Part shown: positions 17,901 through 30,909 of the stretch, in pieces
Position numbering within the stretch: the first letter of the stretch is position 1
How the letters are laid out: every line of letters begins with the position of its first letter
Source of the DNA: a bacterium
GTDB lineage: Bacteria > Oederibacteriota > JAAXVQ01 > JAUVAV01
DNA length: 64,000 nucleotides
Assembly: GCA_021108215.1 (NCBI GenBank)
Contig: JAIORK010000004.1
Span: 1 to 64,000, forward strand
Direction of reading: 5' to 3'
Position numbers and translations under genes: made by a program
Notes under the pieces: model-generated
Seen by the model: only the letters and a program-made list of their open reading frames with translations
Databases searched by the model: none
Told to the model about the DNA's origin: nothing

Positions 17901-20900
17901 CCGTCCGCAATGTCAGCTCAGCCTTTAATTCGGCATATTTTATGAATGCATCCACTGTCTTGGTTTTTGCCTCAATATAGGCATTGACGTAAGGAAACAA
18001 CATCAATGCATCTTTGGCTGTTTTACCTTGATACTGCTCCCGTGCCTTTGCCAAAGCGGATTCTGCCTGGGTCAACTGCCGGCGGGCGGCATTATATACC
18101 TTTGCCTGATCATTAATTTTGCCTTCCAAATTTTTCAATTCCGTCAAAATCTGCTTGCGTACTGCCTGAGCTGATTGAACATTAATCTTTTTTTCCAGGG
18201 CGGATAGTTTCCCTGCCAAAACATTTTCCCCGGAAAACCGCAATATCAGATTCACTGCCAGCCGGCGGCTGAAAAGGTGTTCATCCTGACTGCCTGCTTT
18301 AACCTGGATGTCAATCTGATGCATCATTGTTTCAATACCCACCTCAGGTAAAATCCCCTGCACCACACTGGGCATTTTAGAACCTGTGGCATTGGCGGCC
18401 TGCACAATATTCTGCATACGCGGATCACGCTCAGCCACAGCAGCCATGGTTTTGTCCAGCTGCACGTCAAGTCCTTGCGCAGAAAGCAATTTGGTAATAT
18501 TACCGGTGGGGGTATAAACAAATGTCACATCCGTACCAAAAATATTTGCCAATTCCGCCCTGGCCCAGCGCACGGCTTCCTGCCGTTCCAGCACCCGCTT
18601 CTGGGCACCGCTGTATTGAAACCCGACTGCCTTCGCATTTTTCGCATACAGGGGTTTGAGCCGCGCCACTTCATTCTCAGCCACTTTTAAAAATTCACTT
18701 TGTAAAGCCAGTGTGTAATACGCCTTGATCCCCTGAATCCATTTCTGATGAACCGCACGATCCCGGGCAAGCCGGCCCTGGAAAGCCTTGTGCTGGGCCG
18801 ACTGGATCTGCCGCAAATAAGCCGGTGTCCAGTTAATCTGACCTACCAAACTGGCATACATATTTTTCACTGTGGTCTGTTCCCCGGCGGCATTGGTAAA
18901 AGACTGACTGGCCGTGCCTCCCGGAATCAAAAGCGAAACCGTAAACAAGGTCGGATCATTGGAAAGCGCCTGTGCAACCTTAAAATTATTTTCTGCGGTT
19001 AAAACATCATTGGACCCCTGTACCAAAGACGAGAGCAATTTCACCACTTTGGCGGGATCGGAAATATCAATTTTCACAAGCTTGCGCTCTACTGCAACCG
19101 TGGAAGGACTCCCCCCGAACTGAGCTAAATACAATGCCGCCCGGGATTGGTTCCCCATAAAATAGGTCAGCTCCAACCGGCGGTAAAGCGTCTGTAAGTA
19201 AATAAAATCCAGCTCATTAAACGTCAGAGTTCCGGCTTTATACTCTGCTTGTGCCTTGGCATATTCTTTTTCCGCAACCGCCACCATCCGCTGAGCTACC
19301 TTGAGTTTTTCCGAACTAATGCGATAGATCCCAACAAAAGCGTCACGCTTCTGCCGGAGTTCACTGCGCACCTGCTGAATTTGACGCTCTACACGCACAA
19401 GTTCCACACGCGCGCGCGTCATCTGAGATTTTTTACCGCCGGACCCCAGCGCAATACTAACGCCCAAGTAAACAGTATGATCATTAATCGGCGCAGTATA
19501 GCCGTATCCCAGTTTCCAACGCGCAGACGTTTCCCGGCCGGATGCTTTGATTTCCGCGCGCAACTGATCGCGATGGGCTTCCAGCAATTTAATAAATGAT
19601 TCCGGATCATAATTATTTTGCAGCAAGGCAGTGCCCACGGTTGTCGGCATTGAGGTCAACAATTTTTCAGGATTATGAATCGCAACCTTGGTGCCGGCCG
19701 GCAAATTGGAAAGCCGCAAATAATCGGCACGGGCCATATTCATTTCATGCTCAATTTGTTTAAGCTGCGTTTCGCCGAAAGCAATCTGGTCCTTTTCCGC
19801 CTGGGCAAAAAATGGCCGGCGAAGCCGCTTGGCTTCCGCTTCACGCTTGACATACCCTTCGCGTGCGCGGGTCACAATCGTTTGCTGGGCCTTATAGCGA
19901 TAGGCCAGTTCCACCAGTTTGATATATGCTTCCGTCGCACTGATCATCACCTGATTTTTCGCTACGGTCTCTCCTACCTGCCGGGTTTTCTCTTTCAGGC
20001 GGGCGGCGCGCTGTTCAGGCCCGGTACCGAAAGTGCGCATGCTCAACGGTCCGCCGAGTTCCACATTCACACCGGTCCGGTATCCTTGATCACCTGTCAC
20101 CCGTGTCCCAATGCCTTCTTGTTCAGTAAAGCCGCGATATCCAACGAACGTACTCACACCCAATTCAGGCCGCCCTAATTTTTTTGCCAATTCCAATTCC
20201 GCCCGGGCCGCTTGGGTGCCTAAAATGGAGCGGCGCACATTCATTGATTTTTTTGTAACCAGTTGCAGATTTTGACTCACCGTGGGCAACGTAATCGTTG
20301 CCGTGGACATGCCCGGTTTTTCCGTACCTTTTAAAATCATTGAGGCGGTTAGATATTCAAACTGCATACTGGAACGTTGGATATAGAGATCCGCCCATTG
20401 GCTGCGTAATTCCGCCACCAGAATGACATCGCCCCGGTTGGCCTTGTAATTCAGCTCCGCCAATGCCAGTTTCTCACCGATCTGGCGCAACTGATTTTCC
20501 AGAAATTGCATCCGTCCGACAGAATGTTGCATGGTCATCTGAGCTTTCCAAATCGCAAAATCCTGCTGCCACTTGGACTGCTTGACATCCAAACCGGCAA
20601 TCTGCGCATTGACCTGCGCAACCCGCTGCCGGGCTGCAGTTAAACCAAAATCAGTGTGCAACAAGCGTGCGCGCAATTCCACATAGTACGCCATATCCTT
20701 AAATCCCTTGGAATTGCTAAAAACAATCCCACTCAAATCCAGCGTGGGGATCCAGGAACGATTGGCTTTGAGCAATTCCACTTCATAATTTGACATCCGC
20801 TCTTTGGCCTGTAAAACATCAATCTCTCCCCGGGCCGGTGTCAGACCAAAATACTTGGACGTGATCGTGTCCAGTTCAGACTTGGTCACCAGCTTGTTGC

Positions 20901-23900
20901 CAACGCTCAGCTTGGTTCCCACCGGGTTGCCTACCAAAATATTAAGATCACGCATTTTTTGACTGACATTGGCATTGGCCTCCGCCAATTGGGTCCGGAT
21001 CTTGTCCGCCCGGGTCAGCAATTGAAGATGATAAACACGCAATCGGGCTTGCTGTTCAACCGGCGCTTGCTGCGTTTTTATTTCATTTTGTTTTATCAGT
21101 GTCAGTAATTCCTGAAGCGCGGCTTTACGCTGGGAAACAACATAGTTGGCATTACGCAGTTCAATATACCCTTTCACAACTTTTGGCACCAGCACGCTGA
21201 TATCACGGTGATATTCAGAACGATGCACCGCGGCATTGGACTCCAGCCTCTGGAAATAAGCCGAACGAACAGGATCATAAATTCTCGAATGGACACGGAT
21301 CATTTCATCCACAAAAAAATCAGCGCCATCCACACGCCCCTCGCTTACCCGGCCCAATTCACCCATATAAGAACGATACAGCGGCACCTTCACCGTGAGA
21401 CTCGGGATATAGGCAGCCAGCTTGGCCTGAAAAACCGATTCGCGCGCCAAATCAATTTTGGTACGGTCAATATCCAATGAAGATGATGTGCGCATGGCAC
21501 TGGAAATCAAACCGGGCAAATCCCCTTTTGCAGTCTGACGCACCTGACGGGTTGATGTATACGCACGTTGTCCGGTAGTAAAATGCGCCGGTTCAAATGC
21601 CCGCGTGTACGCCCTGTTCGAGGCACAACCGGTAACCAGCAACGTGGCCAATCCGGCAATCACACTAAAAACTCTTTTCCCCATGCCCCAAACACGATTC
21701 AGACTGAGTGCCTGCCCAACGTCTCCCGGGGTCGCGGTACTTTGTTCCGTGATTATTTGGCCGATACGGGCCTGGAGCGCCTGCTGGACAATCCCGGTGG
21801 CATAATCCGCAATCGCTGCATCCACATGCTCGAAAACCGAGCCATCTGCAATCGCCGCCTCATTGGCCAAATCATGTTCCAAAATAAGTTTCTGTGCTTC
21901 ATTTTCAATGAGCGGACTTCTCATCATAAACAGAGTCACAAAATCCAGCATCAGCCGGTTTTGGCCATCGGTTGTATTCAAATCAATTCCCTGATCCTGG
22001 TATCCATCCAAAAATAAGACAAAACTATTTTCATCAAGAACACCTTGCTCCCGCAGTTGGCGAATATGCGCATCGTCACTTTGCGCCAGGACAACAATTT
22101 TCTGGGTCGTATTTCTATGCCCGCGGGGAAGATCAAGCATGATACTGCGGAGTGCATTGTCCACCATGGCGGTGATGCCGACCAAATTGTTTTCCGCCTG
22201 TTGGTCAACATAAACCGTGGCATCGAGTCCTTCATGCTGCCAGGTCCGGACCTGCCCGGTCACAAGCGCAGGCAGGTTGGTTTCAGCTGATTCTGCCGGT
22301 TGACGTGTACGTCCCGACGTATAGGCGACCCGGAAAATACCCTGGGCTGTCTTCATAAATGTCTTCGAAAACCGGACAGCACGCTTGCGCAATCCGCTGT
22401 TCAACCCTACCAACATAACCAGTCCAACCGCAATCAGACCGCCGCTGCCCAAAGCCAGGCTCCAGCCGGACAGCGTCAACAAGCCAACTGCGCCGAGACT
22501 CACCAAACCGACACTCACCAAAGTGGTCATCAATGTCATCACCAGGGCACGTTCCACACTGCGGAAAACAGTCCCCAGATATTTGGCTGGACGGGAAAGT
22601 GAAATATCCAATTGCGGCAACCGTCCGCGCAGACCACGGAAGGACGTCTGCAAGCGACCGTCGGATGTCATCTGATAACTTTCCGCCCGCTTTTGCGCAT
22701 GACTGCTTGCATAAAGAATGGATACTGCGCGACGAATTTTACGGACGTGCTTCTTTGCAGTCGATTTTTCCGCAGTGACCACCAGCATAACCCGCGCATT
22801 ACGATTCATAATTCTGGCTGTTTCCTGTAAATAAACAAAATCCGCCTCATCCAGCAATGCCGGATTATTAATCCGGAAAATCACTACCGGCTGGTCTTCA
22901 CGGCCAAAGCTGGCTTTGTCAAGATTCAAGGGCCGGTCTTTTTTAAAATCACCATCCAATTGACGCAATTGCCCGGAAATGGCAGCTTGGTATAAAACCG
23001 TAGCATTTTCCGGAATGGATTCATTGCCTACATCCCCGGCAGTGGGCAGCGACGTCTCCGCGGCAACTGTCTCAAAACCTGAACTGCGTCCCAACAGGGC
23101 GTCCGCGTCCGCCAGGACCTCTTCCACGGTCCGTTCCGGTGCAGCCACTGCTTCAATACGCAAAGGTGAGACAGCAGCGGTTGTCAAAATCTGCGGAACC
23201 CGTTTCGAGAAAAAATCAATTGTGATCCGGCTGGCTTTCTCTTTGAAACGATTCAACGGATCACGCCCTACATAAGAAACAAACATAACATCCTGCATGG
23301 CCGTATCAATCGGACGTAAAAACTGGTTGCCCCAATCATTTTTCAACTGGGTAATCAGGTTTTTCTTTTGATCTTCCACCGTCATACCGGTCGTGCGCAC
23401 AACCATCGCATAAAAATCAATTGTATAAGCTGTCAAAGCCTCGGCCAGCAATGCCGCCGCCTGCTTATCCCCTTTGCGCGCAGACATTTCATACGCGGAA
23501 ACCATATCCAGAAAACCCTGCGTTTCAATGGGAAGTTGAATCCCCCGGTCGCGAAGACTGGTGATCATCAAATCCATCCCGGTAATCAGGACATCGCCAA
23601 ACGGGATCGTCCCGGCTTCTTTTTGCAGCTGTTTAATCAAGCGTTTCCGCAATTCCAGTCCGCCGCGGTTCCGGTCTGCCACTGAATTTTCAACCAGTGC
23701 GGCCATGGTTTGAAATGTCGCCTCATCAATCGCCACCGGCTTCAATGCCGCCAACAACGCACTCGTATCCCATAATTGTGGATTTTGATAATGGGTAAAT
23801 TGATTCACCGTATCTGCAATCTGTTGGCTGATAACTTCACGAATATTTTTTTCTTGTGTGAAATAACGAACCTGAGCTGTAATATCCTGCTTAATATTTT

Positions 23901-26900
23901 CCTGAACAAAGGCGGTCAAGGCCGTTTCCGACATCGCATCAATCCGGCGTTCAATCCCCCGCCGGTGAACATCCGCCCGGTTCACAGCAGCAAAATATTT
24001 ATCAAAATAAGAGCGTGCTTCAGATTTTGTCCGTGAAATTTTCAAATGCGTCCTGTAAATATTACGCAAAATTACCTGGCCCCAGCGGGTTCCGATCATA
24101 TTGCCGGTCACTTCATTGTTCAGCAGCTTCTGCACAAAATCAGGAATATATTTTTGAAAAATTTCATCATCCTCAAAACTATACACTTTCTGAGCATAAC
24201 CCATCAATCCCTGCCGGCCCACACGCCCAAACAACTGATCATTGGCATCCGCACTCTCCGGCACTTCCGCCTCTATCGCCAGCATGTCGCGCCCCAGCAC
24301 ATTGAATCCCCGGGTACCGCGGGGATTGGTCAGGGTCACCACAAAAGGCAGGTTCGCAATCTGCTTAATCGCCGCCAACTGCTGCTTGCTGGTTTTAGAA
24401 GAAATCACACAGATCGTCAGCTGATTATTGTCCTGCTGATAGCGCTGCAGCAGTTCAGTCTTCGCCTGTTGCCGCGCCTGCGCGTCCGGCATGGCGTTGA
24501 CTGCATCCATTTCTTTTTGCAACGCATTGGCACGCGAGCGGGCAATCGCCACAGTGGTACGCAACCGGGAAACCGGTGTATCCGCATCAATCACCTGTAC
24601 CATAAATCCCTGGCGACGCAAGGCCTGAAGCATACGCGAGGCCAGTGACTGAAGTTTACCTGTTGTATAAGTCCCGATCAGCGTCCCACTGATCACGCTA
24701 TGTTCTTTCACCATTTCCTGAACAGCGCTTAATTGTTCTGACGCTCTTAAATAATATTGATCGGCATAGCGGTTGCGTATCAACGAGGCCCCCTGATCTG
24801 AAGGCAGATGGAGACGCGAGAGCCCCAGACGTTCGACCAATTCCTGCTGTTCCTCGCTGTTGCCGGTTGTGGCTGACATCAGATTACGCCAACGGTAACG
24901 GAGCGCATACTGGGCCGGCATCAATTGGCTCTGATATTCACCGATATCCGTAAAACGGATGGCCTGGCGCTGCAGAGGATCGGCTTCCACCAAAAATTCC
25001 TTGGCTTGCAATGCCTGATGAATCCCGCCCGAAACTTCCTGACCGGGCATGTCCTGACCCGTCTCCTTATTAATCAAGGTAACCTCGCCACCAACCATGC
25101 GATACTCTGTCACGCCGGGTTGCAAATCCCGCCGTATCGCGGTCATATCCACATCGCGCCGAACAAAGAAAAACTGGGCATTCAACGCCGCATGCAGATA
25201 ATGCTGCAAAAGAGGAAATTCGGTCAGACCGGTTTGGGTAGACAGCCCCAGATATTGCTGTTCCAATAGTTTGCGCGCTTCTTCCGTCAGGGTTACTTCT
25301 TCCTCACCTGCCTGGTAAGCGATCTCAAACATTTTGACATCATTCCTGCTCTGGAGTGCCGCCATCTGACTGACAATCGTGGCAAACAAAAGACGCATCA
25401 ATGCAGGATTCTCATCAGATAAGGCATTAAAAACATCGGCATTGGGAATCGCCGCTTCTCCGGCAGCAGACAGTTTCACACCTTGCGTTGCCAGATCCAC
25501 TTTCAAGAAACCGGGTTTCACCGCACGCACCAACCGGGCCAGCAATTCCTTCTGTTCCGGATCACGGACCGTTTCCTGCACTGCCTGATTAATGGAACGC
25601 GGGGTCACGCCTTCCACAAAATAAGTCACGTCCCCTTCGTCATCGATACGGAAATAGGGATCACGCGGATTAATCCCGGTCTGATAATCAAAATTAAATG
25701 CCGTCTCCGTCCCATAGGTAATATCCGCGGCATACGCCCGGCTTAAATCATGACTGATTTCCATTTCCTGCTTGGTTTCATTCCAGATCATCACCGCAGG
25801 CCGGGAGGTAGCACGATCAAAATAACCTGTGACAGCGACAGAGACACCGAGCGGTGCCAGCAGCCGGGCCGCTTCCACCCCCTGTTCAACCGCCAAATCG
25901 ATATTCGGCGTTATCAGATGGGCTCCTTGATCCAACAACGCCATCGCGTAAAGCGCCATCGCCGCAGTCTCAGTCTTGCCCTGCCCGGTCGCCATTTTAA
26001 TCGCATAAGCCATCGCATCAATCGCCGACACCTCCGGCGTGACCAGCATCCGGAAAAAATAACCGATCCTGGCCCAACCCCGCCGCTGTTGCATCTCTGT
26101 AAAAGCCAGTGCCGCCATAATCTGATTGGGATGCATGGTGAATGTTTTAAGGAGCTGACGGGTCACCTCATTTTTCTCCTGATCCGCTGAAGCCCGTTTT
26201 TGTTTCTCAATCGCAACCGCCGCGATGGCAATCGCCCGCATACGCTGTGTGCGCATACTTTTTTCCGACTGCTCCAGGGATTTATCCTGTAACGATTGAC
26301 GAATGGTATTCGTCTCATTTTTCAATTCCGCCAATGATTTATCCCGCAATGCAACCCGCAATACATCCACATCATCCGCCTGCGAGCGAATGGTTGCAAT
26401 CTTACGCGCATAAGCACGCGCCTGCCGGCGCGGTGCAATCCATTGACGGTATGAAAAATACCCAACCACAATAAGACCGGCCCCTATTGTGAAAAGCCAG
26501 GAAGCCAACCCCAGGGTGACAAAAACAGTCACAATCCCGAAAGCAAATTTACCGAATAATACCACCTCAAACAATATGCCTGCCAAAGCACCGACAATCG
26601 CCGCAGGGACTAAAAACGGCAGCGCCCGTCCTACAAACGTTTTTGATTTTCCCAGACGCGCCGTTTGCACCATCGCCGACCGTTGCTCGGCAAAAATAGC
26701 GCGCAACTGGTCACCCAGGCCGACCACAATACCTATCACCAAAAAGATAGACACACCGATGCCGCCCAGGCCGATCGCTTCCGGCAACAGCGCCATGGCG
26801 ATCACTGCTGCCGCGCCTCCGGCCGGAAGAATCGCAAGAATTTTAGAGAGATAATCACGCGTCTGCGCACCGGGCGCTTTGCCGGGAATATATGATCCTG

Positions 26901-29900
26901 AGCCGGCTAAGTTGGCCGCGATTTCTTTGGGATTGAGCATCAGCCGGGTTCCTACCAGCGAAAAAAGCAAAATCATACCCACCACGATCCCGATATAAGC
27001 CAGAGACATGGGCGCGATAGCAAATCCGAGCAATGGCTGGGTTACCATGGATATAAACGAAATGAGCATCATGGAGCTGAAAATCGCGTTAACCCCCATA
27101 TAGTCGGCTTTCAAAGGCAGAAACCGTTCGCTGATCTTCCGGTCTTTTTTCCCGCTATCGCGTGTCGAGCGGATGGGAAGTTTGAAATAATAGGTGTTCA
27201 ATACAACCGAAAGCGCGGACAACGAAAGTACGGCAATCATCATGGTCAATGCCGGCATACTCAACACACCCACACCCAATGCCGCAGTCACCTGACCAAT
27301 CAAGCCGGGAACAATCATGGCACCCAAAAGCAATGATGTCTGCTTGCCGCCCAAACCGCGTTCTGTAATCACCGAGTTGAACCAGGTGACGATCACGGAA
27401 CCCAGCGTCAGCGTAATCACACCGGCAACCATCATTCCGGTCGAGGCAAACAATGCCGGAAACATGGCAACCACAAAAACCGCCTGGACCACGGCAATTC
27501 CCACCGAGATATACTTGGAATACTTCTCAATTTTTTTCCGTCCGATCTCACCGGACTTCTGGAGATCCTTGATCGCCGGAAAAATAAATTGCCCGACCAT
27601 CATGAGCATGGATGCACCAAAATACGGTGCCAGGCCCAGACCAAAAACTGAAAACTTCTGCAAAGCACCCCCGGAAAAGAAATTAAAAATATCCATGGAG
27701 GTATTGCCTGAAAGCGCAGTGATGAAAGAAGGATCAATCCCCGGAATGGGAATCGTCTGGCCGATAAAATAAATCCCGATAATACCAATCGTGATCATCG
27801 CCCGTTTGACCAGACCCCAGGGAATACCGGCGGTGAGCCGGTCAAAATACAAACGGGTGTCTGTTGTAGCTGCTTTAACCCAGGAAGATGATTTCTCGGT
27901 TTTAGCCCCGACTGAATTATCCGATGCCACCTGGTTTAAAACCGACTGGATGCGTTTACCCGGAACATCCACCTGAGCAATACCGGCTTCGGTTTGGACT
28001 GCCGTCTTTTCAGTCGGTCCGCGCGGCAACGCTTGCGCCGCTGCCAAGGTCGTCTTGGCGCTGCCCAGTGTCCCGCGCATTGCCGCCACCATCAAACCGG
28101 GAATCGAGATAACCTGACTGATATACGCGGTGATCTCGCCGACTATTTTTCCGGCAGGTGCCCGGTTTGCCTGAGCACGGCGTGCCGCCTGCGCCTGATG
28201 CGCCAACTCATGATTTAAAATAAGCTGCTGGAAAAATTTAGGCACATGGGAAAGACGCGCCAGATCAGCCGTGATCTGTCCTGTGGCTTCATCAAATCCG
28301 GCAATAGTCTTTGCGCCGCGCCGGTCAACCACATTATAAATCTGCCAACCACTGATAAGCTTGGTACTCTGGATCCCCCGGCTTGCAGCCAATCTGTTTG
28401 AACGAAAAATCGAGACACCCATAACAACAAAAGGAATCCCCACCAGGGGCAGCAACACCGAGCCGAGCGCGCCAACTGCCAATGCAGCAGTACTCCAGTT
28501 CATCCCCAGGGCAATGACACCGGATAAATCCGCATATCCAAAATAAACCGCCAACAATGAAAGCAGCATACCGGCCATTGCCAACGCCGCAACCGTGCTC
28601 ACGCCGGTTTGAGAAATCGGACGGACATTTTCTCCTGCAATGCTCTCCGTGGTTTGCCCGGTCAATTGTCCCAGCTGCCGACTGATCACAGGATAGCCAA
28701 TCACCGCCATCCCGGCAAATCCAATCGCCGAACCGAGCATTACCGGCACATTGGCAAAGAGGATCAATCCCAGCGCCATGGCAATAACCCCGGCGCCTGC
28801 AACCACCCTGACATTCACGGCAACCTTGCCCTGTTCATCCAAAACCAACCGGCCAAGCCGGTCTTGTATCCTGCCGAGTGCATTGCCGCTTCCCTGCTGC
28901 AAGCTGCGGACCATATCCGGGAGCACCTGGGTTACATTTCCAAAGGCACTCATAAAGCTGCTTGTACTCTGCCCGGAAAGCAATGCCGCACCCCCGGTCG
29001 TCATCACCGCCATGGGTGAGATCAAATTGATGACTGCCCGGCGCAATCCCAGGAAAGAACCGCTTACCCTGCGCCCACCGGCCAGTAAGCGTCCCTGAAC
29101 CTGCGCCAAGGTGGCATTGTCCAGCATCACAACTTCATACCCGGTTTTTTCAATCGCAATTTTTGCCAATTCAATCATCCCGGCAGGATTTTCCGAACCC
29201 TGTCTGCGCACAACCGCCGATGCGGCAATACCCTTAAACGGAAGAATATACGTATCTCCGGAATTCACGGCATTTTCCCAATCAACAGTAATCTCATTGG
29301 TGTAAGGATACACCGCCATATCAGTTTCAAGCTTTGCCTGCACATCAGTCAACAACGTGGTTCCGCTCGAGACCAAACCGGCAATCTCCGCCTCTTGCAG
29401 CAGCATGCGCATGCTGTCGAGAAAAACCCGCACATCACCGGATTGCGCCGCTTCCTGCTCAACAGATAAAATTGCATCACCTTCTCCCACCTGCGGAAAA
29501 CTGGGTGCCAGAGCAAGTATATTTTGATTTTCAGCCAAAAGTTTTTCCAGCGGCGTTTTGCGATTGCGAATCAAAGCAAAATAAGGATTTACCAAATCTT
29601 CCTGGGTCATGCGCGGACGCACGGAAAGGTAAGAAATACCGCGGGATTTCATCTCCTGCAAAACACGCTCCGTATGAAAACCACCTGTGACCATCACTGC
29701 AATCCCGGTTTTATTCTGCCGCATGCCGGAAAGGGTATTTTCTACAAAAACCTCACTGCGCAGGTCTGCCATCTCATAAAAACGAACAACTCTGTCGAGA
29801 TATTCATCCAGTCCGTAAACCTCAGATTCCATGAGTAAATCGCCCAGCGCGTCATACTGTTGAATAAAGGTGGTAAATTCTTTTACCGTATAGCTTCCGC

Positions 29901-30909
29901 GATTTTGCAGATAACTCTGGAGCTCATCTGATGTGGCTGAAATATTCAAAAGTTTTTCCATCACATCCAACTTCGTCAAATAGGTGTCCAGCTCCCGTTG
30001 GGCATGCGAGGTATATAGTTTTGCTCGCACAGCCAAATCCAGCGCATCAACTTCCGCATAAATCTTATCCGGATCCAACTCCTGCGGGATGACGTTGCGG
30101 CGCTTGGAGACATATTCCAAAAGATCTGCATAGGCATTTAGATCAATCCGAATCCGCTTGGCATACCCGCAAAGGTAGACACCGTATTTCATGATCGATA
30201 TTTCACCCTCACGATAATCGCGTTTTTGATCATCCAATTCCTGGAGTTCGGGACTATAAATTTCAACCTTCAAAGCATCCAGCAAATCGCGCAAATCATA
30301 AATAAAACCCTGGCTCTCGTCATTGAGAAAGCTCATCACCAGCTTGCGGCTGCTGTGATAAAGCTCGTCTTTTTCAATACCCGTGAGCACGACAGGGTGC
30401 CTGCCCGTACCGGCATAATATTCAGCACCACTCATTTTGCCTTGGCGCATAAAAAATTGACCGGTTGCTTGTTTGGCTTTCAGATTGGGAAATTTAGACA
30501 GATGGGTCACATTGACAGGACGGGAGGCGCCTTCAATCGCAACCAGTTTGAGCCGGTAATCTTCAGCCAGATAATCGATGATATTGGCAATATTATTTTG
30601 CACCTCATAATTGCAATGCAAATCCTGAATATGCACTACCAAGCGGTCCTGCCCTTGATAGGCATCCAAAATCGCGCCGAAATCCTCAGGAATACCGACT
30701 TCCTGTTGTGCATGAATGACGACGTTCCTGGCCTGTGGATAAGCCTCTGCTTCAAACGCCCAGGTGAGGTAGGGAAATACAAAGGCCAATGTAATAAGCA
30801 TTGCAATAACCTTTGTCATAACCTTCCTACCGGGCTGATGCCAATTTTTAAGAAGCAGAAGCTGTTCAGGATCAAAAAGTGCTGAAATGGCTTCTTGTAT
30901 GCGGATCAT
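2953..30909 (-). CDS. Giant multidomain envelope protein A (9,318 aa) with SecY, SecA-like, TolC-like and GH-A domains
   Basis: This is a single uninterrupted frame of 9,318 codons. ATG at 30909 is preceded by GGGAG at 8 bases and a promoter at 30989-31017. The N-terminus has a hydrophobic signal segment (residues 31-52). Domain order, with approximate residues: TIKI/EreA-like 56-515; TMs plus an HELAH motif 640-960; SecY 1020-1410; SecA-like ATPase 1500-2330; TM and unknown domain 2780-3050; lipobox Cys3095 with TolC-like block to 4340; HExxH module 4350-4540; second unknown domain, lipobox Cys4813 and TolC-like block to 6080; HExxH module 6085-6270; clan GH-A barrel 6545-6830; two beta-sandwich repeats 6870-7160; HExxH module 7165-7345; GH-A barrel 7730-8025; beta domain 8100-8200; unrecognised helical region 8320-8810; beta-rich end. 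Its order matches giant protein B except for an added 5,000-residue secretion block. It probably stops early through a frameshift. I infer an envelope-spanning scaffold that degrades or binds glycans. The overall function is unknown. Confidence 0.95.
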   Translation of the reverse strand: MIRIQEAISALFDPEQLLLLKNWHQPGRKVMTKVIAMLITLAFVFPYLTWAFEAEAYPQARNVVIHAQQEVGIPEDFGAILDAYQGQDRLVVHIQDLHCNYEVQNNIANIIDYLAEDYRLKLVAIEGASRPVNVTHLSKFPNLKAKQATGQFFMRQGKMSGAEYYAGTGRHPVVLTGIEKDELYHSSRKLVMSFLNDESQGFIYDLRDLLDALKVEIYSPELQELDDQKRDYREGEISIMKYGVYLCGYAKRIRIDLNAYADLLEYVSKRRNVIPQELDPDKIYAEVDALDLAVRAKLYTSHAQRELDTYLTKLDVMEKLLNISATSDELQSYLQNRGSYTVKEFTTFIQQYDALGDLLMESEVYGLDEYLDRVVRFYEMADLRSEVFVENTLSGMRQNKTGIAVMVTGGFHTERVLQEMKSRGISYLSVRPRMTQEDLVNPYFALIRNRKTPLEKLLAENQNILALAPSFPQVGEGDAILSVEQEAAQSGDVRVFLDSMRMLLQEAEIAGLVSSGTTLLTDVQAKLETDMAVYPYTNEITVDWENAVNSGDTYILPFKGIAASAVVRRQGSENPAGMIELAKIAIEKTGYEVVMLDNATLAQVQGRLLAGGRRVSGSFLGLRRAVINLISPMAVMTTGGAALLSGQSTSSFMSAFGNVTQVLPDMVRSLQQGSGNALGRIQDRLGRLVLDEQGKVAVNVRVVAGAGVIAMALGLILFANVPVMLGSAIGFAGMAVIGYPVISRQLGQLTGQTTESIAGENVRPISQTGVSTVAALAMAGMLLSLLAVYFGYADLSGVIALGMNWSTAALAVGALGSVLLPLVGIPFVVMGVSIFRSNRLAASRGIQSTKLISGWQIYNVVDRRGAKTIAGFDEATGQITADLARLSHVPKFFQQLILNHELAHQAQAARRAQANRAPAGKIVGEITAYISQVISIPGLMVAAMRGTLGSAKTTLAAAQALPRGPTEKTAVQTEAGIAQVDVPGKRIQSVLNQVASDNSVGAKTEKSSSWVKAATTDTRLYFDRLTAGIPWGLVKRAMITIGIIGIYFIGQTIPIPGIDPSFITALSGNTSMDIFNFFSGGALQKFSVFGLGLAPYFGASMLMMVGQFIFPAIKDLQKSGEIGRKKIEKYSKYISVGIAVVQAVFVVAMFPALFASTGMMVAGVITLTLGSVIVTWFNSVITERGLGGKQTSLLLGAMIVPGLIGQVTAALGVGVLSMPALTMMIAVLSLSALSVVLNTYYFKLPIRSTRDSGKKDRKISERFLPLKADYMGVNAIFSSMMLISFISMVTQPLLGFAIAPMSLAYIGIVVGMILLFSLVGTRLMLNPKEIAANLAGSGSYIPGKAPGAQTRDYLSKILAILPAGGAAAVIAMALLPEAIGLGGIGVSIFLVIGIVVGLGDQLRAIFAEQRSAMVQTARLGKSKTFVGRALPFLVPAAIVGALAGILFEVVLFGKFAFGIVTVFVTLGLASWLFTIGAGLIVVGYFSYRQWIAPRRQARAYARKIATIRSQADDVDVLRVALRDKSLAELKNETNTIRQSLQDKSLEQSEKSMRTQRMRAIAIAAVAIEKQKRASADQEKNEVTRQLLKTFTMHPNQIMAALAFTEMQQRRGWARIGYFFRMLVTPEVSAIDAMAYAIKMATGQGKTETAAMALYAMALLDQGAHLITPNIDLAVEQGVEAARLLAPLGVSVAVTGYFDRATSRPAVMIWNETKQEMEISHDLSRAYAADITYGTETAFNFDYQTGINPRDPYFRIDDEGDVTYFVEGVTPRSINQAVQETVRDPEQKELLARLVRAVKPGFLKVDLATQGVKLSAAGEAAIPNADVFNALSDENPALMRLLFATIVSQMAALQSRNDVKMFEIAYQAGEEEVTLTEEARKLLEQQYLGLSTQTGLTEFPLLQHYLHAALNAQFFFVRRDVDMTAIRRDLQPGVTEYRMVGGEVTLINKETGQDMPGQEVSGGIHQALQAKEFLVEADPLQRQAIRFTDIGEYQSQLMPAQYALRYRWRNLMSATTGNSEEQQELVERLGLSRLHLPSDQGASLIRNRYADQYYLRASEQLSAVQEMVKEHSVISGTLIGTYTTGKLQSLASRMLQALRRQGFMVQVIDADTPVSRLRTTVAIARSRANALQKEMDAVNAMPDAQARQQAKTELLQRYQQDNNQLTICVISSKTSKQQLAAIKQIANLPFVVTLTNPRGTRGFNVLGRDMLAIEAEVPESADANDQLFGRVGRQGLMGYAQKVYSFEDDEIFQKYIPDFVQKLLNNEVTGNMIGTRWGQVILRNIYRTHLKISRTKSEARSYFDKYFAAVNRADVHRRGIERRIDAMSETALTAFVQENIKQDITAQVRYFTQEKNIREVISQQIADTVNQFTHYQNPQLWDTSALLAALKPVAIDEATFQTMAALVENSVADRNRGGLELRKRLIKQLQKEAGTIPFGDVLITGMDLMITSLRDRGIQLPIETQGFLDMVSAYEMSARKGDKQAAALLAEALTAYTIDFYAMVVRTTGMTVEDQKKNLITQLKNDWGNQFLRPIDTAMQDVMFVSYVGRDPLNRFKEKASRITIDFFSKRVPQILTTAAVSPLRIEAVAAPERTVEEVLADADALLGRSSGFETVAAETSLPTAGDVGNESIPENATVLYQAAISGQLRQLDGDFKKDRPLNLDKASFGREDQPVVIFRINNPALLDEADFVYLQETARIMNRNARVMLVVTAEKSTAKKHVRKIRRAVSILYASSHAQKRAESYQMTSDGRLQTSFRGLRGRLPQLDISLSRPAKYLGTVFRSVERALVMTLMTTLVSVGLVSLGAVGLLTLSGWSLALGSGGLIAVGLVMLVGLNSGLRKRAVRFSKTFMKTAQGIFRVAYTSGRTRQPAESAETNLPALVTGQVRTWQHEGLDATVYVDQQAENNLVGITAMVDNALRSIMLDLPRGHRNTTQKIVVLAQSDDAHIRQLREQGVLDENSFVLFLDGYQDQGIDLNTTDGQNRLMLDFVTLFMMRSPLIENEAQKLILEHDLANEAAIADGSVFEHVDAAIADYATGIVQQALQARIGQIITEQSTATPGDVGQALSLNRVWGMGKRVFSVIAGLATLLVTGCASNRAYTRAFEPAHFTTGQRAYTSTRQVRQTAKGDLPGLISSAMRTSSSLDIDRTKIDLARESVFQAKLAAYIPSLTVKVPLYRSYMGELGRVSEGRVDGADFFVDEMIRVHSRIYDPVRSAYFQRLESNAAVHRSEYHRDISVLVPKVVKGYIELRNANYVVSQRKAALQELLTLIKQNEIKTQQAPVEQQARLRVYHLQLLTRADKIRTQLAEANANVSQKMRDLNILVGNPVGTKLSVGNKLVTKSELDTITSKYFGLTPARGEIDVLQAKERMSNYEVELLKANRSWIPTLDLSGIVFSNSKGFKDMAYYVELRARLLHTDFGLTAARQRVAQVNAQIAGLDVKQSKWQQDFAIWKAQMTMQHSVGRMQFLENQLRQIGEKLALAELNYKANRGDVILVAELRSQWADLYIQRSSMQFEYLTASMILKGTEKPGMSTATITLPTVSQNLQLVTKKSMNVRRSILGTQAARAELELAKKLGRPELGVSTFVGYRGFTEQEGIGTRVTGDQGYRTGVNVELGGPLSMRTFGTGPEQRAARLKEKTRQVGETVAKNQVMISATEAYIKLVELAYRYKAQQTIVTRAREGYVKREAEAKRLRRPFFAQAEKDQIAFGETQLKQIEHEMNMARADYLRLSNLPAGTKVAIHNPEKLLTSMPTTVGTALLQNNYDPESFIKLLEAHRDQLRAEIKASGRETSARWKLGYGYTAPINDHTVYLGVSIALGSGGKKSQMTRARVELVRVERQIQQVRSELRQKRDAFVGIYRISSEKLKVAQRMVAVAEKEYAKAQAEYKAGTLTFNELDFIYLQTLYRRLELTYFMGNQSRAALYLAQFGGSPSTVAVERKLVKIDISDPAKVVKLLSSLVQGSNDVLTAENNFKVAQALSNDPTLFTVSLLIPGGTASQSFTNAAGEQTTVKNMYASLVGQINWTPAYLRQIQSAQHKAFQGRLARDRAVHQKWIQGIKAYYTLALQSEFLKVAENEVARLKPLYAKNAKAVGFQYSGAQKRVLERQEAVRWARAELANIFGTDVTFVYTPTGNITKLLSAQGLDVQLDKTMAAVAERDPRMQNIVQAANATGSKMPSVVQGILPEVGIETMMHQIDIQVKAGSQDEHLFSRRLAVNLILRFSGENVLAGKLSALEKKINVQSAQAVRKQILTELKNLEGKINDQAKVYNAARRQLTQAESALAKAREQYQGKTAKDALMLFPYVNAYIEAKTKTVDAFIKYAELKAELTLRTESYGIRQPAAAVVKKEVPRTSVPFAAALAGLGLQFVFAGGWLWMLPAMIATVFLGAELTKYLAFNAGWMQRGADQAWQALSLEERANAVTQRTGLTIRVEEQAKGLGNAWRAWRSGSPLTAYDADTDTYRISERLLDSNGWFSSRQLDTFLRHEQAHAVRGVGESRAILTEIWGNGLVDFMLNFSTLLNVPWAMARTLIDRVGSWISQPSLLRDQIVNFGGRFTKRTNRMLRTNLAPETLSLETELPSGLESITIGLDATGEALQAGKIQTWKVGGKQLNIYVDSNAEKAISGITAVFDQRLREGLKGLPLEYLNPNQNIVVLATRDQQQIDKLKSEGLINEQTLIFALDAYANQGVNLATPQGSFQLGSDIFRWLLVSSRTLQSTAAILIDQYDLANKDLLADGSVFNRIESILAMYPGGMQAALKIVLSRGIVNRSITLAPSSRRFQRNLGVLRQWTGRGLAIFSGLVALLMTGCTSVHSITRTTSAMNTTAFTPRRSSPDGVILSAGRQTAQSPTTTLTAPNRIASKELNRFIDQALRKSSQLNIDRTRITVNEQMVLQAKLSAYIPAVTLTVPIYESYMNEVGRVSDGMVGEADFFVDELLRVHARVYDPIRSAYQDRLHANTTMSQAELDRDVTGLITKVVNGYIALRSANYVMEQRRQAVESQLGLIAENESAIEAAPAESQADLKLYHQLLITRLEKMRTELIESETDVNQKMRTLNLLTGNPAEMRIQVGKTLVTKEELDAIGQNYFGFSSLEGTVDVAQANLSVSEHEQKLLRANASWIPTLDAGGIVFDNSRGDDIGYYLELRARLLHTDFGRTASQENIAAVNSRIAALDVRDARAQKEYAVWKAQITLQHALGQLQYLEGQLRQIGEKLGLAELNFQAGRGDVILVAELRSQWSALYVTKAGMQYNYLTASMILSGAQTVTTEGATFGLPAINEGLQLITETSPDVRRALLGVDAADAEIDAARREKNPQLNFSIYGGYRGFTEFETLGTRITGDEGYRYGANLELSGALSFSGTEASERAARLKVLERQAGVKVVQDQTMVATAEAYLRVLELAARFEAQSEIVKQSKIGFEQRRQDAEQNNKPFFARAEQDQIAYGESLLAQIKLEVDLAKAEYCRLAQLPAGTNLTVDNPQTLLEQMPGGIGAALRNQGHNPEAFLELLRAHQRQLTAQVAAEKNKTGAQWKVGIGYDAYVNDASIYGGISIPFGGGSKKSQQTWAELELAKVENQIHQVENELANKRRAFAEIYRYSTEKLRIAQRMVVLAQEQYRQAQRDFDAGKIGFSELDFKRIQVNYRKLELTYFQGNQSRAALYLSQFGGRPEMVTTEVQTVAIDVTDPAKMIELLTPLVEGSDAVIFAENSFKVAQARINDPSLFTLSLLAPLGAAGQTFTNPDGRPMTVKNEYQAMTGQIDWSPAYLSQIQNARHQAFESRMDRDRVVHEKWVAGLRAYYNLALQSEMVKLAENELTSWTRLRDQNPSDAAISFKHSSARKQLLERQEALAWAKAELSNIFGTHIHFSYTPTGDAGALLSSTGFDQEIEQALHLATENDPRLRDIMTDAQGTGSILPAFVTGIIPDVSIQARMNQIDIQTTDEHMFSRRLAVNLILRFSGDHIMDGSIADLRNQIDLASAQAVRNQVQGELSELEGKINDQARIYNQARLQLNQAEQSLEAARKSFNAGTPEEAQKLLPYVAAYIEAKSKATDAFLKYAELRAELVLRTESYGVNLATTPVMEKAVPRLSVPFLAALAGLGLQYLAGNNWLYLLPALLTAVFLAVEVGKYLYLNSGIAKSGASDAWKKMTQSQKIDAIENRTGIRVRVMEQAPGIFNAWRAWRSGKPLTAYNPNDDTYAVSERLLDSDQWFMQRQLSSFLRHEQAHAKRGASETRAILAEVWGGGLTDLMLNFSTLLNIPWSMALGVMNRIGTRMKTGTTLVDQDGTQLQTAIVQIGESETVISRALEGVNAAEAMFVQSAQLKTEALLALEQERTQAQKQQRPVSQALLDEYTAKTEMNEKDRLAIYQAFTQYTTRLDRFVSAAESVQATHAERFMPGQKREVMARAIVFAEALSAGEASVETQTGVRPELLKRLGNIAVLKAEKVAQTGRLTGMARRVFFSLVGSITLVAMSFSLFPQTMNGLLGTVIRNMPNSVVDILRETLYSINPNWGHRLDVNISATTKSFVQIDPDHPTQLSAEGVVVKIKGANYYPSQHGWGKMWSQWNPELIEQELSRCPGLGINSIRTFIHYEEFGKDQVDPAMLRRMDQFLEIADRYGLKVQFTFFPMHRNYHKDNWPNMQAHVRAVLERFKNDSRVLGWGVTNELDLHIENNPQDQGLEKLGIAWHNEMARFIKSIDPNHIVIAATSRPGWIGLLDPTHIDVYSLHVGAYGDAVDGMIATAQRTMRDKGITAPILFEELGVDFKKEAVPGLQSGKFFRQAMSAVKKSDISGFMVWALNDIDDQTYGIIDKEGRPRGASAIIRDFYQGTDWRRLIQVARPVLKGLGEQRHSSSYINVLVSPQKSDSLLFTEKQAVLEIGENNQFTIKRPGTPNYGAIELSKPIELDMDISQWLKINVNDVEGRWYLILRSPEKPGWYQRVQIDTTRKGTFYYRLSDYIPEALQELRTGKHTFVFEIGVSRTDASKNAAMTFDELALISGDVDITRQTGTRRSVQTVIGEGRNDISVFSANKGSIERVGKDQARIQVDQEATFGGVILQGLTPGQNQIKLNMDQQQWIDLNVTFVKGRWYLILRSPEKPDWYARIQMDTDQTGRFYYDIRAHLPGDMQTGEHTITLEIGTAKTKQASRPNVTFDHLSVITQQPKETPRMFVPVLIAVATVAYQFFVGGDWYLFLPAAMATIFYMVEVSKYFVVRSGFLRLFANLKWKALTLDEKVAAIEQRTGLRVVPIRQERGWASAFRALQQNQPLAAYDVATGEYRVSERLLDSNDWFTRRQLDSILRHERVHGEKGMGEARAILAEIKGGGVVDFILNFSTIINIPWLAATKIPFIGRIIRGRQAPLEELISREMMSLDQALGIVGKADKELAVALHTMMIARQRAEEMELRQNRVEEVLDKAWRRAGTDGKVDPKLEKAVSRAYNQNAAAWREVRRAFNVYTTIMRRFVQASKNLRKTNVDELGSDHKQEYLRDAQKIANKYSVGEAGEQNKLGVDETLWQQFSQIGNEDFSQLAPAEIGRARKGKRLVDFVTIVGILLTGIIGIGMAEITSFNTALPVSIGLVVLALGMLTYAWRTGRLRSTGVQHERLRRHGMQYWILTDFVRSAFWGITRAGVSMIAIAFMFLAPLGQTRFVQIIIGITMQPLVDISRGLLNKISPYRDQKPDVSADISKTTGLPGERLNSISERLFGTSESVPEGFAAVNRAEPDQISINGTVVKIKGANYYPSKHAYEKMWTEWNPALIEKELSRSSQVGINLIRTFVHYEEFGKDKVDPAMLQRMRQFVEIADRYGMKVQFTLFPNEREYGDVEKAKRHVTQIVGEFKDDSRIFGWGVTNEMDLDVYLHGVPGEYPTMKEAAVWHNTIARHLKATDPNHLVIAGSSKPETFNYLDMTYVDVFALHTGGRLDSPQALIMKAKEFMHKTGNIRPILFEQFGVDYATTESGAAGDFIHRVFREIYKTDIAGGLIWALNDMGDEKIGVFDGAGSLRSGMNTIGISYVGTDFTDIKEVSRPSAPIQTPSEMNGYNRVHGETIQLFSQEMLTKTDAISGIWTPAGERITMLPLDDGLKIERTGDQNYGGMVTKQSFQVDLNQHAEVSIKVRDVTGQWYAVLTHAETGQQIRLQLDTHVDGEFVFDLAHYLPANMQQWGHYFTLEIGVTETDYTRTLPDQNASVIVEEVKIVNGNRTTRTNALQVTLAEKLAMETLQGKRVQTVEHKVDIIKTPFLRVDLPVGQAYLRAKVFVDGQEIRLENPFYFFAGETRLDLYQLCRQARIPLAGQGISDVRVEMEALGPLANQAVIDKISVESRHPVMAKKYLTFNKLNLKAFCREHNISLTALLMMVELEDTREKDVMGKRSTLYNRVKLWLYQYWINIPANRLVQPIRGDLGSFLPYHSTESLTELVTRWKARKSSMEWIHAWQGGWNEAALEFRGAIFDAEWQAWVGPADLVMREDGMLAKQDISEFCSHPSINMAEENFERVIALNHPGMNLETYLATYNALQIEVEMVSTVRRRFFNYSPGDRLLELIRRRISGQFVDPKPDLPGICIEVNRELAKQGIKGEISPSEMRRVIDQEASGFEEWFFVLYHNKATLTRLIGDVYYAYLNESVTSDDYIHEGNYREKLTSEQIRQCLEISEKLGFYAPGLPAKGGGSSIWMDLLVPMMQWMYKLNYTKPTMRDLLLRFNPSSNPNEGVLGLLAAWNAGERDPRLIIGRLNNQQVMGRYNLEQYMTPDLKRRFTLDQLATIVSGFEQIFGRWDPKQFPLENLIANWQKYQVLSEADYYDRVSQSRFNNLMPSMEKENRVALLPSGVTPEEFQSYGADVVLADNGQGGTRLTVVGTRSGQDSEEHRKYGGVLLHTRLNGKGFNMLRMEVKEVTSSMYINIHYDHDGTKYTKIYSTPLPINQPGVYYFNLKDIIPQNIYEQVGEGRVDEATIKHLHRTLVDDVIRREAQAEHNALENNAKPRWKQLESDLRWRTKQAYDALASRYSGEVPRVEYNRANQKLLAYETQQRKALRVSLKAEHDLIDEKWGRISGQRHRQLDAQLGSLMIPIEIGVNSQWRDPESKEPATPQQQTNAGQRVVIDSMEIIRASDSEQRGVDLIRNGAWAYNAENYFMPWEANGVEQRIDQQNRLVIRGAREEMTAAKLGMMSEAEINAFQKKNGSGTVLRQLKIDPSNRWIEVTVDEMTSSGYLVINNADGKAISPKMKINAPGTYRFDLDGIFSSNCWLEFGVISKYHKPGTPYMPEHVSNAGQTITISRMLAMSGKALGGINQDVINLTTMGAWYYTDEQYVSTLRSRYERMFNW
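4480..5960 (-). other. Domain in giant A: unrecognised helical region shared with giant B
   Basis: Residues about 8320-8810 are rich in helices and Trp, with conserved blocks NISLTALLMMVELE, IPANRLVQPIRGDLGSFLP, WIHAWQGGWNEAALEF, FFNYSPGDRLLELIRRRISG and GGGSSIWMDLLVPMM. The same region occurs in protein B at 51600-53030 at high similarity. I do not recognise the fold. High conservation with many charged and aromatic residues suggests a real enzyme or binding function. Confidence 0.6.
6840..7725 (-). other. Domain in giant A: clan GH-A TIM barrel, copy 2, with Gln beside the nucleophile position
   Basis: Residues about 7730-8025 repeat the layout of copy 1: KIKGANYYPS start, HYEEFG, GWGVTNE with acid/base Glu7851, and strand 7 LFEQFGVD (Glu7946, Gln7947). 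In GH5-type enzymes the nucleophile Glu directly precedes aromatic-Gly, and here that position is Gln. Either the preceding Glu is used or this copy is a binding-only domain. Protein B has the same substitution in its second barrel. Confidence 0.75.
8880..9415 (-). other. Domain in giant A: HExxH membrane module, copy A3
   Basis: P-R-M-F-V-P helix pair, RTGLRVVP, PLAAYDVATGEY, SERLLDSNDWF, ILRHERVHG (His7301, His7305), EARAILAEIKGGG and NFSTIINIPW. A coiled-coil-like helical segment and two TM helices (about 7540-7590 and 7627-7645) follow before the second GH-A barrel. It is most similar to the second module of protein B. Confidence 0.7.
9430..10300 (-). repeat. Domain in giant A: two beta-sandwich (CBM-like) repeats
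   Basis: There are two copies of about 120 residues with the shared core V-x-G-R-W-Y-L-I-L-R-S-P-E-K-P, then a Q-x-DT strand, a G-x-F-Y-Y strand and a GxHTxxxEIG strand, each ending in T-F-D-x-L. The aromatic-rich beta pattern beside glycosidases suggests carbohydrate binding. Related copies lie in protein B at 56540-57340. Confidence 0.65.
10430..11280 (-). other. Domain in giant A: clan GH-A (GH5-like) TIM barrel, copy 1
   Basis: Residues about 6545-6830 begin with VKIKGANYYPS, typical of the first strand of GH5/GH2-type barrels. The strand-4 motif GWGVTNE carries the predicted acid/base Glu6665, and strand 7 ends in LFEELGVD with the predicted nucleophile Glu6758 or Glu6759. Conserved HYEEFG, FTFFP and VWALNDID support a retaining glycosidase of clan GH-A. 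The substrate cannot be told from sequence; mannanase-like GH5 enzymes have a similar FEE(Y/F)G nucleophile motif. Confidence 0.8.
12100..12662 (-). other. Domain in giant A: HExxH membrane module, copy A2
   Basis: The architecture is the same as the other copies: P-R-L-S-V-P-F helix pair, RTGIRVRV, NAWRAWRSGKPLTAY, SERLLDS, FLRHEQAHAKRG (His6221, Glu6222, His6225), TRAILAEVWGGG and NFSTLLNIPW. It is followed by a helical stretch of about 150 residues and a TM before the first GH-A barrel. This copy sits where protein B has its first HExxH module. Confidence 0.7.
12680..16473 (-). other. Domain in giant A: lipobox plus TolC-like block, copy 2
   Basis: Lipobox ALLMTGC(T) with Cys4813 is followed by a second TolC-like block of about 1,260 residues. 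It is colinear with copy 1 along its length: the IDRTRITVNEQMVLQAKLSA start, GDVILVAELRSQW, YRGFTEFE, GGSKKSQ, and HMFSRRLAVNLILRFSG near the end. Copy and original differ by many substitutions, so the duplication is old. Two TolC-like blocks in one chain may supply two of the three protomers of a TolC trimer; this is inference. Confidence 0.75.
16590..17190 (-). other. Domain in giant A: unrecognised alpha/beta domain preceding lipobox 2
   Basis: Residues about 4575-4774 are similar to residues about 2880-3050 upstream of the first lipobox. Shared features are an I-V-V-L-A strand, a Q-I-x-x-L-x-x-x-G-x-L/V-x-E helix, a hydrophobic strand ending in LDxYxxQGxxL, and DLANxxxxADGSVF. I cannot place it in a family. 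Its duplication shows that the whole unit (domain, lipobox, TolC block, HExxH module) was copied. Confidence 0.6.
17290..17865 (-). other. Domain in giant A: HExxH membrane module, copy A1
   Basis: This module recurs five times in the window. The order is P-R-x-S-V-P-F followed by two hydrophobic helices, then RTGLTIRV, the NAWRAWRSG-PLTAY stretch, ISERLLDS, FLRHEQAHA (His4489, Glu4490, His4493) and GESRAILTEIWG. A final hydrophobic segment with NFSTLLNVPWA follows. HExxH and a downstream Glu resemble gluzincin active sites, as in M48/M56 families. It separates the first TolC block from the next unit. Confidence 0.7.
17880..21627 (-). other. Domain in giant A: lipobox plus TolC-like block, copy 1
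   Basis: A hydrophobic stretch ending LLVTGC(A), Cys3095, looks like a lipoprotein signal but sits 3,000 residues inside the chain. It is followed by about 1,240 residues of long amphipathic helices separated by short beta pairs, with about five half-repeats of the TolC/OprM type. Examples are the IDRTKIDLARESVFQAKLAA start, and turns of the GDV-L-VAELRSQ and GTLTFNELDFIYLQTLY kind. Lipid-anchored outer-membrane factors (the OprM/NodT branch) have exactly such a lipobox. A standard protomer has two half-repeats, so about five is unusually many. Function as an export duct is inferred. Confidence 0.75.
23920..26412 (-). other. Domain in giant A: SecA-like preprotein translocase ATPase
   Basis: Residues about 1500-2330 follow SecA order. 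The N-terminal segment has the L-x-x-K/E-T-x-x-x-R-x-x-L pattern. Walker A is ATGQGKTET (Lys1645, Thr1646). ITPNIDLA matches the SecA motif after Walker A, and YGTETAFNFDY matches the SecA YGTNxEFGFDYLRD element. A DEGD (1757-1760 region) aligns with the SecA DEVD Walker B. SGGIHQALQAKE matches the preprotein cross-linking region, NPRGTRGFNVLG matches the AGRGTDI.LG motif, and GRVGRQG (Arg2229, Arg2232) with YSFEDDEIF matches motif VI. A helical tail follows, and no zinc-binding C-terminus is seen. The ATPase motifs are nearly intact though diverged. Fusion to SecY implies that motor and channel are produced 1:1 in one chain. Confidence 0.9.
26680..27852 (-). other. Domain in giant A: near-complete SecY translocon channel
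   Basis: Residues about 1020-1410 read as SecY. The TM1/plug region carries the IPIPGID signature, followed by FNFFSGGALQKFSVFGLGL, which is near-diagnostic of SecY. Next come GEIGRKKIEKYSKY (cytosolic loop) and, late in the domain, LNPKEIAANL with SGSYIPGKAPG, the SecY TM8-9 loop and NPKE signature. About ten hydrophobic helices can be drawn, so the length is close to a full SecY of roughly 420-440 residues. The cell must also have a normal SecY elsewhere; this copy is fused within a 1 MDa chain and immediately precedes a SecA-like ATPase. I am confident of the family. Whether it forms a channel is unknown. Confidence 0.93.
28030..28992 (-). other. Domain in giant A: multi-TM segment with an HELAH metalloprotease-like motif
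   Basis: Residues about 640-960 contain several hydrophobic helices, followed near residue 900 by NHELAHQ, an HExxH motif of the kind found in membrane-bound M48/M56-type metallopeptidases. In this segment I see only the HExxH motif, without a clear third ligand, so catalytic activity is uncertain. It lies directly upstream of the SecY domain. Confidence 0.5.
29365..30744 (-). other. Domain in giant A: N-terminal TIKI/EreA/ChaN-like domain
   Basis: Residues about 56-515 follow the signal segment. Conserved points shared with protein B are HIQDLHCN (His93, Asp96, His98), VAIEGAS (Glu126) and VTGGFHTE (His412). The spaced H..D.H / E / G-F-H pattern, with alternating hydrophobic strands and helices, recalls the TIKI/TraB/EreA/ChaN superfamily of metal-dependent hydrolases. 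That assignment rests on motif spacing only. Placement directly after a signal peptide would put the domain on the outer face of the inner membrane. It is the most strongly shared N-terminal part of giants A and B. Confidence 0.45.

Follow-up and report, generated by a model that had tools for sequence, protein, structure and literature searches.

A SecY channel and a SecA-like motor in one giant bacterial polypeptide: a candidate dedicated translocase

In the systems known to us, the SecY channel and the SecA motor are separate proteins. In Gram-positive bacteria, a second, accessory pair, SecY2/SecA2, exports serine-rich-repeat adhesins (PMC5076819). The two proteins have also been joined artificially: an engineered T. 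thermophilus SecY-(GGSG)4-SecA is active in protein translocation in vitro when SecE and SecG are supplied (PMC5562318). Our search of 5.39 million open-access papers, with preprints and subscription papers outside its reach, found no natural SecY-SecA fusion, only this engineered one. Giant open reading frames (ORFs) that combine transmembrane (TM) helices with carbohydrate-active domains have been described from uncultured bacteria of the Omnitrophota / Velamenicoccia (PMC10066038). Here, we describe a giant ORF, g1, in a stretch of 64,000 nucleotides (positions 1 to 64,000 of contig JAIORK010000004.1, assembly GCA_021108215.1; hereafter “the window”). It encodes a full SecY and a full SecA-like ATPase in one chain and one frame, an arrangement with intact motifs that is under purifying selection in four species.

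The ORF and the parts of it that make up the fusion are as follows, from the N-terminus of the protein onward.

2953..30909, minus strand: giant ORF g1, 9,318 amino acids, with an ATG start at 30909
26701..27813, minus strand: complete SecY domain, residues 1033-1403 (PF00344, TIGR00967, phmmer)
26470..26652, minus strand: two to three extra TM helices, residues 1420-1480, kept in all four fusion species
23812..26409, minus strand: SecA core, i.e., nucleotide-binding domain 1 (NBD1), preprotein cross-linking domain (PPXD), NBD2 and helical scaffold, residues 1501-2366 (PF07517, PF01043, PRK12904 and a profile of ordinary SecAs)
25972..25995, minus strand: Walker A motif MATGQGKT, with K1645
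25630..25644, minus strand: Walker B motif DDEGD (residue 1756), aligned to DEVD of SecA
24208..24228, minus strand: motif VI GRVGRQG (residue 2228; RxxR), aligned to GRSGRQG of SecA
23116..23448, minus strand: two-helix finger and following region, residues 2488-2598 (profile of ordinary SecAs)
22402..22533, minus strand: TM hairpin closing the conserved cassette, residues 2793-2836 (L032 aligns over 1010-2834, L031 up to 2834)

The channel is recognized along its whole length. The Pfam family PF00344 matches residues 1087-1396 with an E-value of 3e-47 and 161.9 bits (gathering threshold, 32.2), covering model positions 1-303 of 306, and TIGR00967 matches residues 1035-1403 over model positions 2-406 of 414 with 173.9 bits, under its equivalog cut-off of 253.6. 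With phmmer, the alignment to E. coli SecY runs from end to end (E = 8e-39). The SecY signatures IPIPGID, FSGGAL and NPKE (1326) are all present. At the six positions of the pore ring (E. coli I82, I86, I187, I191, I278 and I408), g1 has L, F, Q, L, F and L, so that five of the six are hydrophobic. The plug segment, FSGGAL in g1 and variants of it in L030 and L033, is found in three of the four fusion species. In a tree, the fused SecYs form a single clade with a support of 100/100, on a long branch; by this tree, they share a single origin. Between the fused SecY and the SecY encoded elsewhere in the same genome, identity is 28%.

The motor begins about 100 residues further on (1403 to 1501). 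SecA_DEAD (PF07517) matches residues 1501-1742 with 54.3 bits (cut-off, 24.6), and SecA_PP_bind (PF01043), which corresponds to the PPXD, matches residues 1864-1967 with 24.4 bits (cut-off, 23.5). The full-length model PRK12904 aligns to residues 1565-2378 over model positions 25-701 of 814, with 96.4 bits against an equivalog cut-off of 814; TIGR00963 likewise falls short, with 76.8 bits against 800. Because both the channel and the motor score under the equivalog level, both are divergent. A hidden Markov model (HMM) built from 22 ordinary SecAs matches residues 1501-2366 (73.2 bits) and then residues 2488-2598, in the right order. The ATPase motifs are all present (MATGQGKT, IDDEGD, MSAT, TNPRGT as motif V and GRVGRQG), with no variation among the four fusion species in the Walker A core, DDEG or MSAT. 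The match to the finger is weak when taken alone (i-E-value 0.015 in g1 and 2.2e-4 in L032), and it lies in the correct order after the core. The segment LITQLKNDWGNQFLRPIDTAMQDVMFVSYVGRDPLNRFKEKAS of g1 aligns with the finger of ordinary SecA. The fingertips read FVSYVGRDPL in g1, FRSFAGRDPL in L031 and SRMFLQNRDPL in L032, and the fingertip residue is aromatic: Tyr in g1 and Phe in two relatives. The C-terminal zinc tail (CxC...CH), present in six of seven aligned ordinary SecAs (one row being truncated), is absent from the fusions. On these profile matches, the motor is a complete but divergent SecA.

An earlier note on this DNA had proposed a near-complete SecY with the signatures IPIPGID, FSGGAL and NPKE, with a SecA-like ATPase starting about 100 residues beyond it. 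Both parts are borne out by the family searches over the Pfam cut-offs, and K1645, DEGD and GRxGRQG fall exactly where the note had put them. The E-values, together with conservation in three other species, rule out a chance match. The interval that it gave, 23920-27852, holds for the fusion and falls short in extent: with the two-helix finger, the motor reaches to about 23116. There is no frame break between SecY and SecA. Indeed, the 9,318 codons of g1 (30909..2953, minus strand) contain no internal stop, and the only break, near 2953, comes some 6,700 residues after the SecA part has ended and leaves the fusion untouched. The note had also placed channel and motor in one chain with TolC-like ducts, which is the case in g1, and the fusion itself recurs in other species.

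Specifically, the survey of related genomes found the cassette in three further species of the same family: G002 (loci L030 and L031), G003 (L032) and G005 (L033). Each relative reads SecY and then SecA in one frame, with 36-55% identity to g1. In G002, the SecA part stops at a contig end in L030 and resumes on a second contig in L031; L033 stops at the edge of its contig. The whole cassette corresponds to residues 1010-2834 of g1. Its flanks differ between species, while the cassette itself is kept. Across SecY, NBD1, PPXD and NBD2, protein identity between g1 and the relatives is 38-63%, and identity at four-fold degenerate third codon positions is 26-44%, i.e., chance-like. The protein is thus conserved while its synonymous sites are saturated, from which we conclude that the cassette is under purifying selection. 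Since the same join, in one frame, is found in four species with saturated synonymous sites, it is neither an assembly chimera nor a decaying sequence.

The fusion is rare. When 384 genomes from 331 genera were searched with a profile spanning the cassette, 4 had it, and a scan of the contigs of GTDB species (84,980 species) with two conserved SecA peptides returned only the same three records, from candidate division FCPU426 / Firestonebacteria. The cassette was not found in two sister-family genomes. Two very divergent stand-alone proteins with the first two-thirds or so of SecY and a weak DUF2007 match occur at L066:3982-5400 (G024) and L065:4038-5330 (G005). In L030:1-700 of G002, the frame upstream of the fused SecY opens with matches to glycosyltransferase families 20 and 61.

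How does the fusion compare with described systems? The genome also carries an ordinary secY (contig C42), an ordinary secA (C49) and a single secE (C59), all on contigs other than that of g1. Because this standard set is present, as the earlier note had suggested checking, the fused SecYA is an additional translocase. It shares with the housekeeping SecYEG-SecA the same channel and motor families, the ATPase motifs, the pore ring and the two-helix finger. It differs in being one chain rather than separate proteins, in having a SecY of only ~25-30% identity and extra TM helices, and in lacking both the Arg of the C5 loop and the SecA zinc tail. Like SecY2/SecA2, it is a second SecY and SecA beside a housekeeping pair, at a locus with very large surface proteins; unlike SecY2/SecA2, which are separate genes, it is a single ORF. 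An assignment of g1 to the SecY2/SecA2 system was rejected, since it scores 100.6 of 249.6 bits for SecY2 and 76 of 930 bits for SecA2 and is nearer ordinary SecY (173.9 bits). In the engineered SecYAEG, too, SecY precedes SecA within a single chain. However, it is man-made and has a 16-residue linker, whereas g1 is natural, with a join of ~95 residues that includes TM helices and a chain of more than 9,000 residues. As for the Omnitrophota / Velamenicoccia giants, they resemble g1 in their TM helices, their carbohydrate-active domains and their origin in uncultured bacteria, but SecY and SecA are unmentioned in PMC10066038, and the relatives found here belong to FCPU426 / Firestonebacteria.

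The fusion sits in a much larger protein, for which the neighboring gene g2 provides a reference.

33399..61799, minus strand: g2, a 9,466-residue paralogue of g1 without the Sec/TolC insert
28921..30843, minus strand: N-terminal domain of g1, residues about 23-663, common to g2 and at least eight other giant ORFs
27910..28812, minus strand: module of four to five TM helices and an HExxH motif (HELAH, residue 900), N-terminal to SecY
21625..21672, minus strand: internal lipobox LVTGC, with Cys3095, ahead of TolC-like unit A
17881..21522, minus strand: TolC-like unit A, residues 3130-4343, with OEP repeats (PF02321)
17296..17868, minus strand: TM hairpin and HExxH motif (HEQAH, residue 4489)
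12706..16314, minus strand: TolC-like unit B, residues 4866-6068, with its own internal lipobox (Cys4813; PF02321)
12061..12672, minus strand: TM hairpin and HExxH motif (HEQAH, residue 6221), where the sequence shared with g2 resumes
10513..11217, minus strand: GH5-like domain (Cellulase, PF00150; Pfam match)
8698..9423, minus strand: TM hairpin and HExxH motif (HERVH, residue 7301)

Residues 23-663 of g1 correspond to residues 4-645 of g2 (55% identity), and residues 6080-9313 to residues 677-3923 (50%). Since these matches flank residues 664-6080, that segment, which comprises the TM helices, an HExxH module, SecY, SecA and the two TolC-like units, is by this alignment an insert of ~5,400 residues relative to g2. 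No Sec domain was found in a search of g2. The N-terminal domain is widespread and opens a large set of paralogous giant ORFs: the genome of g1 (G000) has it at 10 places (contigs C4, C8, C12, C49, C6, C34 and C36), in open frames that span 2,270-9,482 codons, and five other genomes of the family hold 8-34 copies each, including 16 matches in G001 and 34 in G004.

We favour, with moderate confidence, the reading that this region is a natural SecY-SecA fusion acting as an extra, dedicated translocase within a giant envelope protein, and that it exports the C-terminal part of its own chain and perhaps sister giants. A dedicated translocase is favoured because the engineered fusion works in vitro and because dedicated SecY/SecA pairs are known for large surface proteins. 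The earlier note had likewise proposed export of the chain itself or of a special set of partners; the fusion underlying that proposal stands, and the export is put here as a conditional reading. We infer the ATPase activity, the translocation, the substrate, the SecE partner and the link to the TolC-like ducts. SecY would be inserted so that its N- and C-termini both face the cytosol. Through the extra TM helices, the chain would come back to that side, and SecA would lie on the cytosolic side of the channel to which it is joined, fixed at 1:1; an even count of these helices would place SecA in the cytosol. SecE may be taken from the housekeeping set, or the extra helices may substitute for it. 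Because channel and motor lie within the first 2,600 residues, they could fold in the membrane early, while at least 6,700 remaining residues are still being synthesized. The motor would then push out its own C-terminal part, i.e., the lipobox-bearing TolC-like units and the glycoside hydrolases, and perhaps also sister giants with the same N-terminal domain.

Several observations weigh against a dedicated translocase. The Arg of the C5 loop (E. coli R357) is absent from all four fusions, being Ala in three and Pro in one, and the SecY of L032 has the plug segment deleted. In E. coli SecY, R357E keeps SecA binding and blocks plug opening (PMC6021171). No SecE-like partner was identified inside the SecY-SecA cassette. 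The fusion was not detected in two genomes of the same family, G001 (96% complete) and G004, and within the phylum the TolC-like units turned up in the genome of g1 alone. Since G001 and G004 do carry giants, the fusion is not needed for all such proteins, and the idea of an obligatory exporter of all giants was accordingly lowered. AlphaFold2 was run on residues 1033-2232 with an alignment of four sequences, the rows of ordinary SecY and SecA being left out. It gave a mean pLDDT (predicted local distance difference test) of 52.7 and a pTM (predicted template modelling score) of 0.32, with good local confidence only in the SecA parts and a pLDDT mostly below 50 in the SecY part. On the supporting side, when this weak model was searched with Foldseek, the top 50 matches were SecA and SecY chains only, with low TM-scores. 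Because the model is poor, the lateral gate and the docking of motor to channel are unproven; the absence of a lateral gate or of a nucleotide-binding fold, which would have refuted the earlier note, is not shown by it either.

A bolder version of this reading would make the single chain a whole trans-envelope machine, consisting of SecY-SecA, two outer-membrane ducts (covalent TolC-like pseudo-trimers with about six OEP repeats each) and a glycoside-hydrolase payload, for export of itself and perhaps of other giants. We consider this version unlikely. Unit A has two PF02321 matches over the cut-off (20344-20808 and 19204-19599) and unit B has three (15136-15606, 14521-15060 and 13942-14370). 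The two units, at residues about 2881-4582 and 4599-6283, are tandem copies whose duct parts are 54% identical. OEP repeats over the cut-off and an internal lipobox resembling the N-terminal lipobox of OprM-type proteins liken the units to TolC/OprM. By contrast, a TolC protomer has two repeats in ~430 residues, while unit B has at least three in ~1,210 residues, and the units of g1 share a chain with SecY and SecA. Each unit, at ~1,210 residues, matches about six OEP repeats in length; together with the spacing of the repeats, this suggests some six repeats per unit, as in a TolC trimer, a number that the poor structural model cannot confirm. That model, of unit A from two sequences, has a pLDDT of 39.3, and its helix pairs count six. 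A profile comparison with the OEP proteins of the same genome supports related repeats and leaves the number six unsettled. A phmmer search of unit A against solved structures gave no match.

Of the explanations that compete with a dedicated translocase, the first treats g1 as a polyprotein that, once synthesized, is cleaved, perhaps by the HExxH modules it carries, to release a free accessory SecY and SecA, i.e., an ordinary second Sec system. Such modules punctuate g1 and g2: four are seen in g1, where 0.11 would be expected, and others lie at residues 818 and 1900 of g2, residue 408 of L030 and residue 842 of L031. All eight modules, those of relatives included, share the H, E, H and a Glu further on. 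In addition, the TM hairpins and internal lipoboxes resemble the ends of formerly separate proteins, and large adhesins are known to be served by SecA2/SecY2 systems of separate proteins (PMC5076819). The HExxH modules could be self-processing peptidases. However, Pfam and PDB profile searches matched them to no peptidase family, no cleavage site was identified, and in all four species there is no HExxH module between SecY and SecA, which are joined in one frame. We judge the polyprotein improbable.

A second explanation, which we find doubtful, is that the SecY-SecA part has been repurposed or inactivated, kept to anchor the giant in the membrane or to serve it as an ATP-driven scaffold, and no longer translocates. 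Consistent with this explanation, the C5-loop Arg is missing from all four fusions and the plug from L032, the SecA part scores far under the equivalog level (PRK12904, 96.4 of 814 bits), and Walker A has an E to Q change. Against it, GxGK[ST], DE, SAT, RxxR, the pore ring and the aromatic fingertip are kept under purifying selection. Lastly, an assembly chimera or annotation artefact that joined a secY-secA locus to a giant gene is close to refuted: the relatives are draft metagenome-assembled genomes, the region lies near contig ends in G002 and G005, and g1 has a frameshift near 2953, but four species, each assembled separately, show the same one-frame join at 36-55% identity. Moreover, the SecY encoded elsewhere in the genome shares only 28% identity with the fused one, and the housekeeping genes are on other contigs.

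If the fusion is a dedicated translocase, it bears on the debated stoichiometry of motor and channel, since a natural 1:1 SecYA would mean that this lineage has settled, in evolution, on a single SecA for each SecY. It would also be a concrete, testable candidate exporter for the question of how uncultured bacteria move out of the cell proteins that are thousands, or even tens of thousands, of residues long. That every fused copy lacks the C5-loop Arg amounts to a natural experiment on the coupling of motor and channel. An all-in-one trans-envelope machine would, if true, be categorically new.

At its 3′ end, g1 is followed by a further ORF.

2..2956, minus strand: ORF g3, an in-register continuation of g1 in another frame, which runs off the contig end

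The product of g3 aligns to residues 3931-4888 of g2 (58% identity), right after the point at which the match between g1 and g2 stops, at residue 3923 of g2. Because g3 resumes this match in another frame, the gene probably continues past the contig end. On these alignments, g1 and g3 are probably successive parts of one giant gene, split by a real or technical frameshift near 2953. At the other end, GGGAG stands 8 nt ahead of the g1 ATG, and a sigma-70-like TTGATT-17-TATAAT is found at 31017-30989, although promoter-like sites are not above shuffled sequence (3 found versus 2.2 expected). A second GH5-related copy in g1, near residues 7614-8026, is an internal repeat. The interval between g1 and g2 holds a GlmM/phosphoglucomutase-like protein (31423-33078) that scores well under the equivalog cut-off. 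The g2 product has GH5, GH130-like, GH99-like and GNAT matches, as well as several internal repeats.

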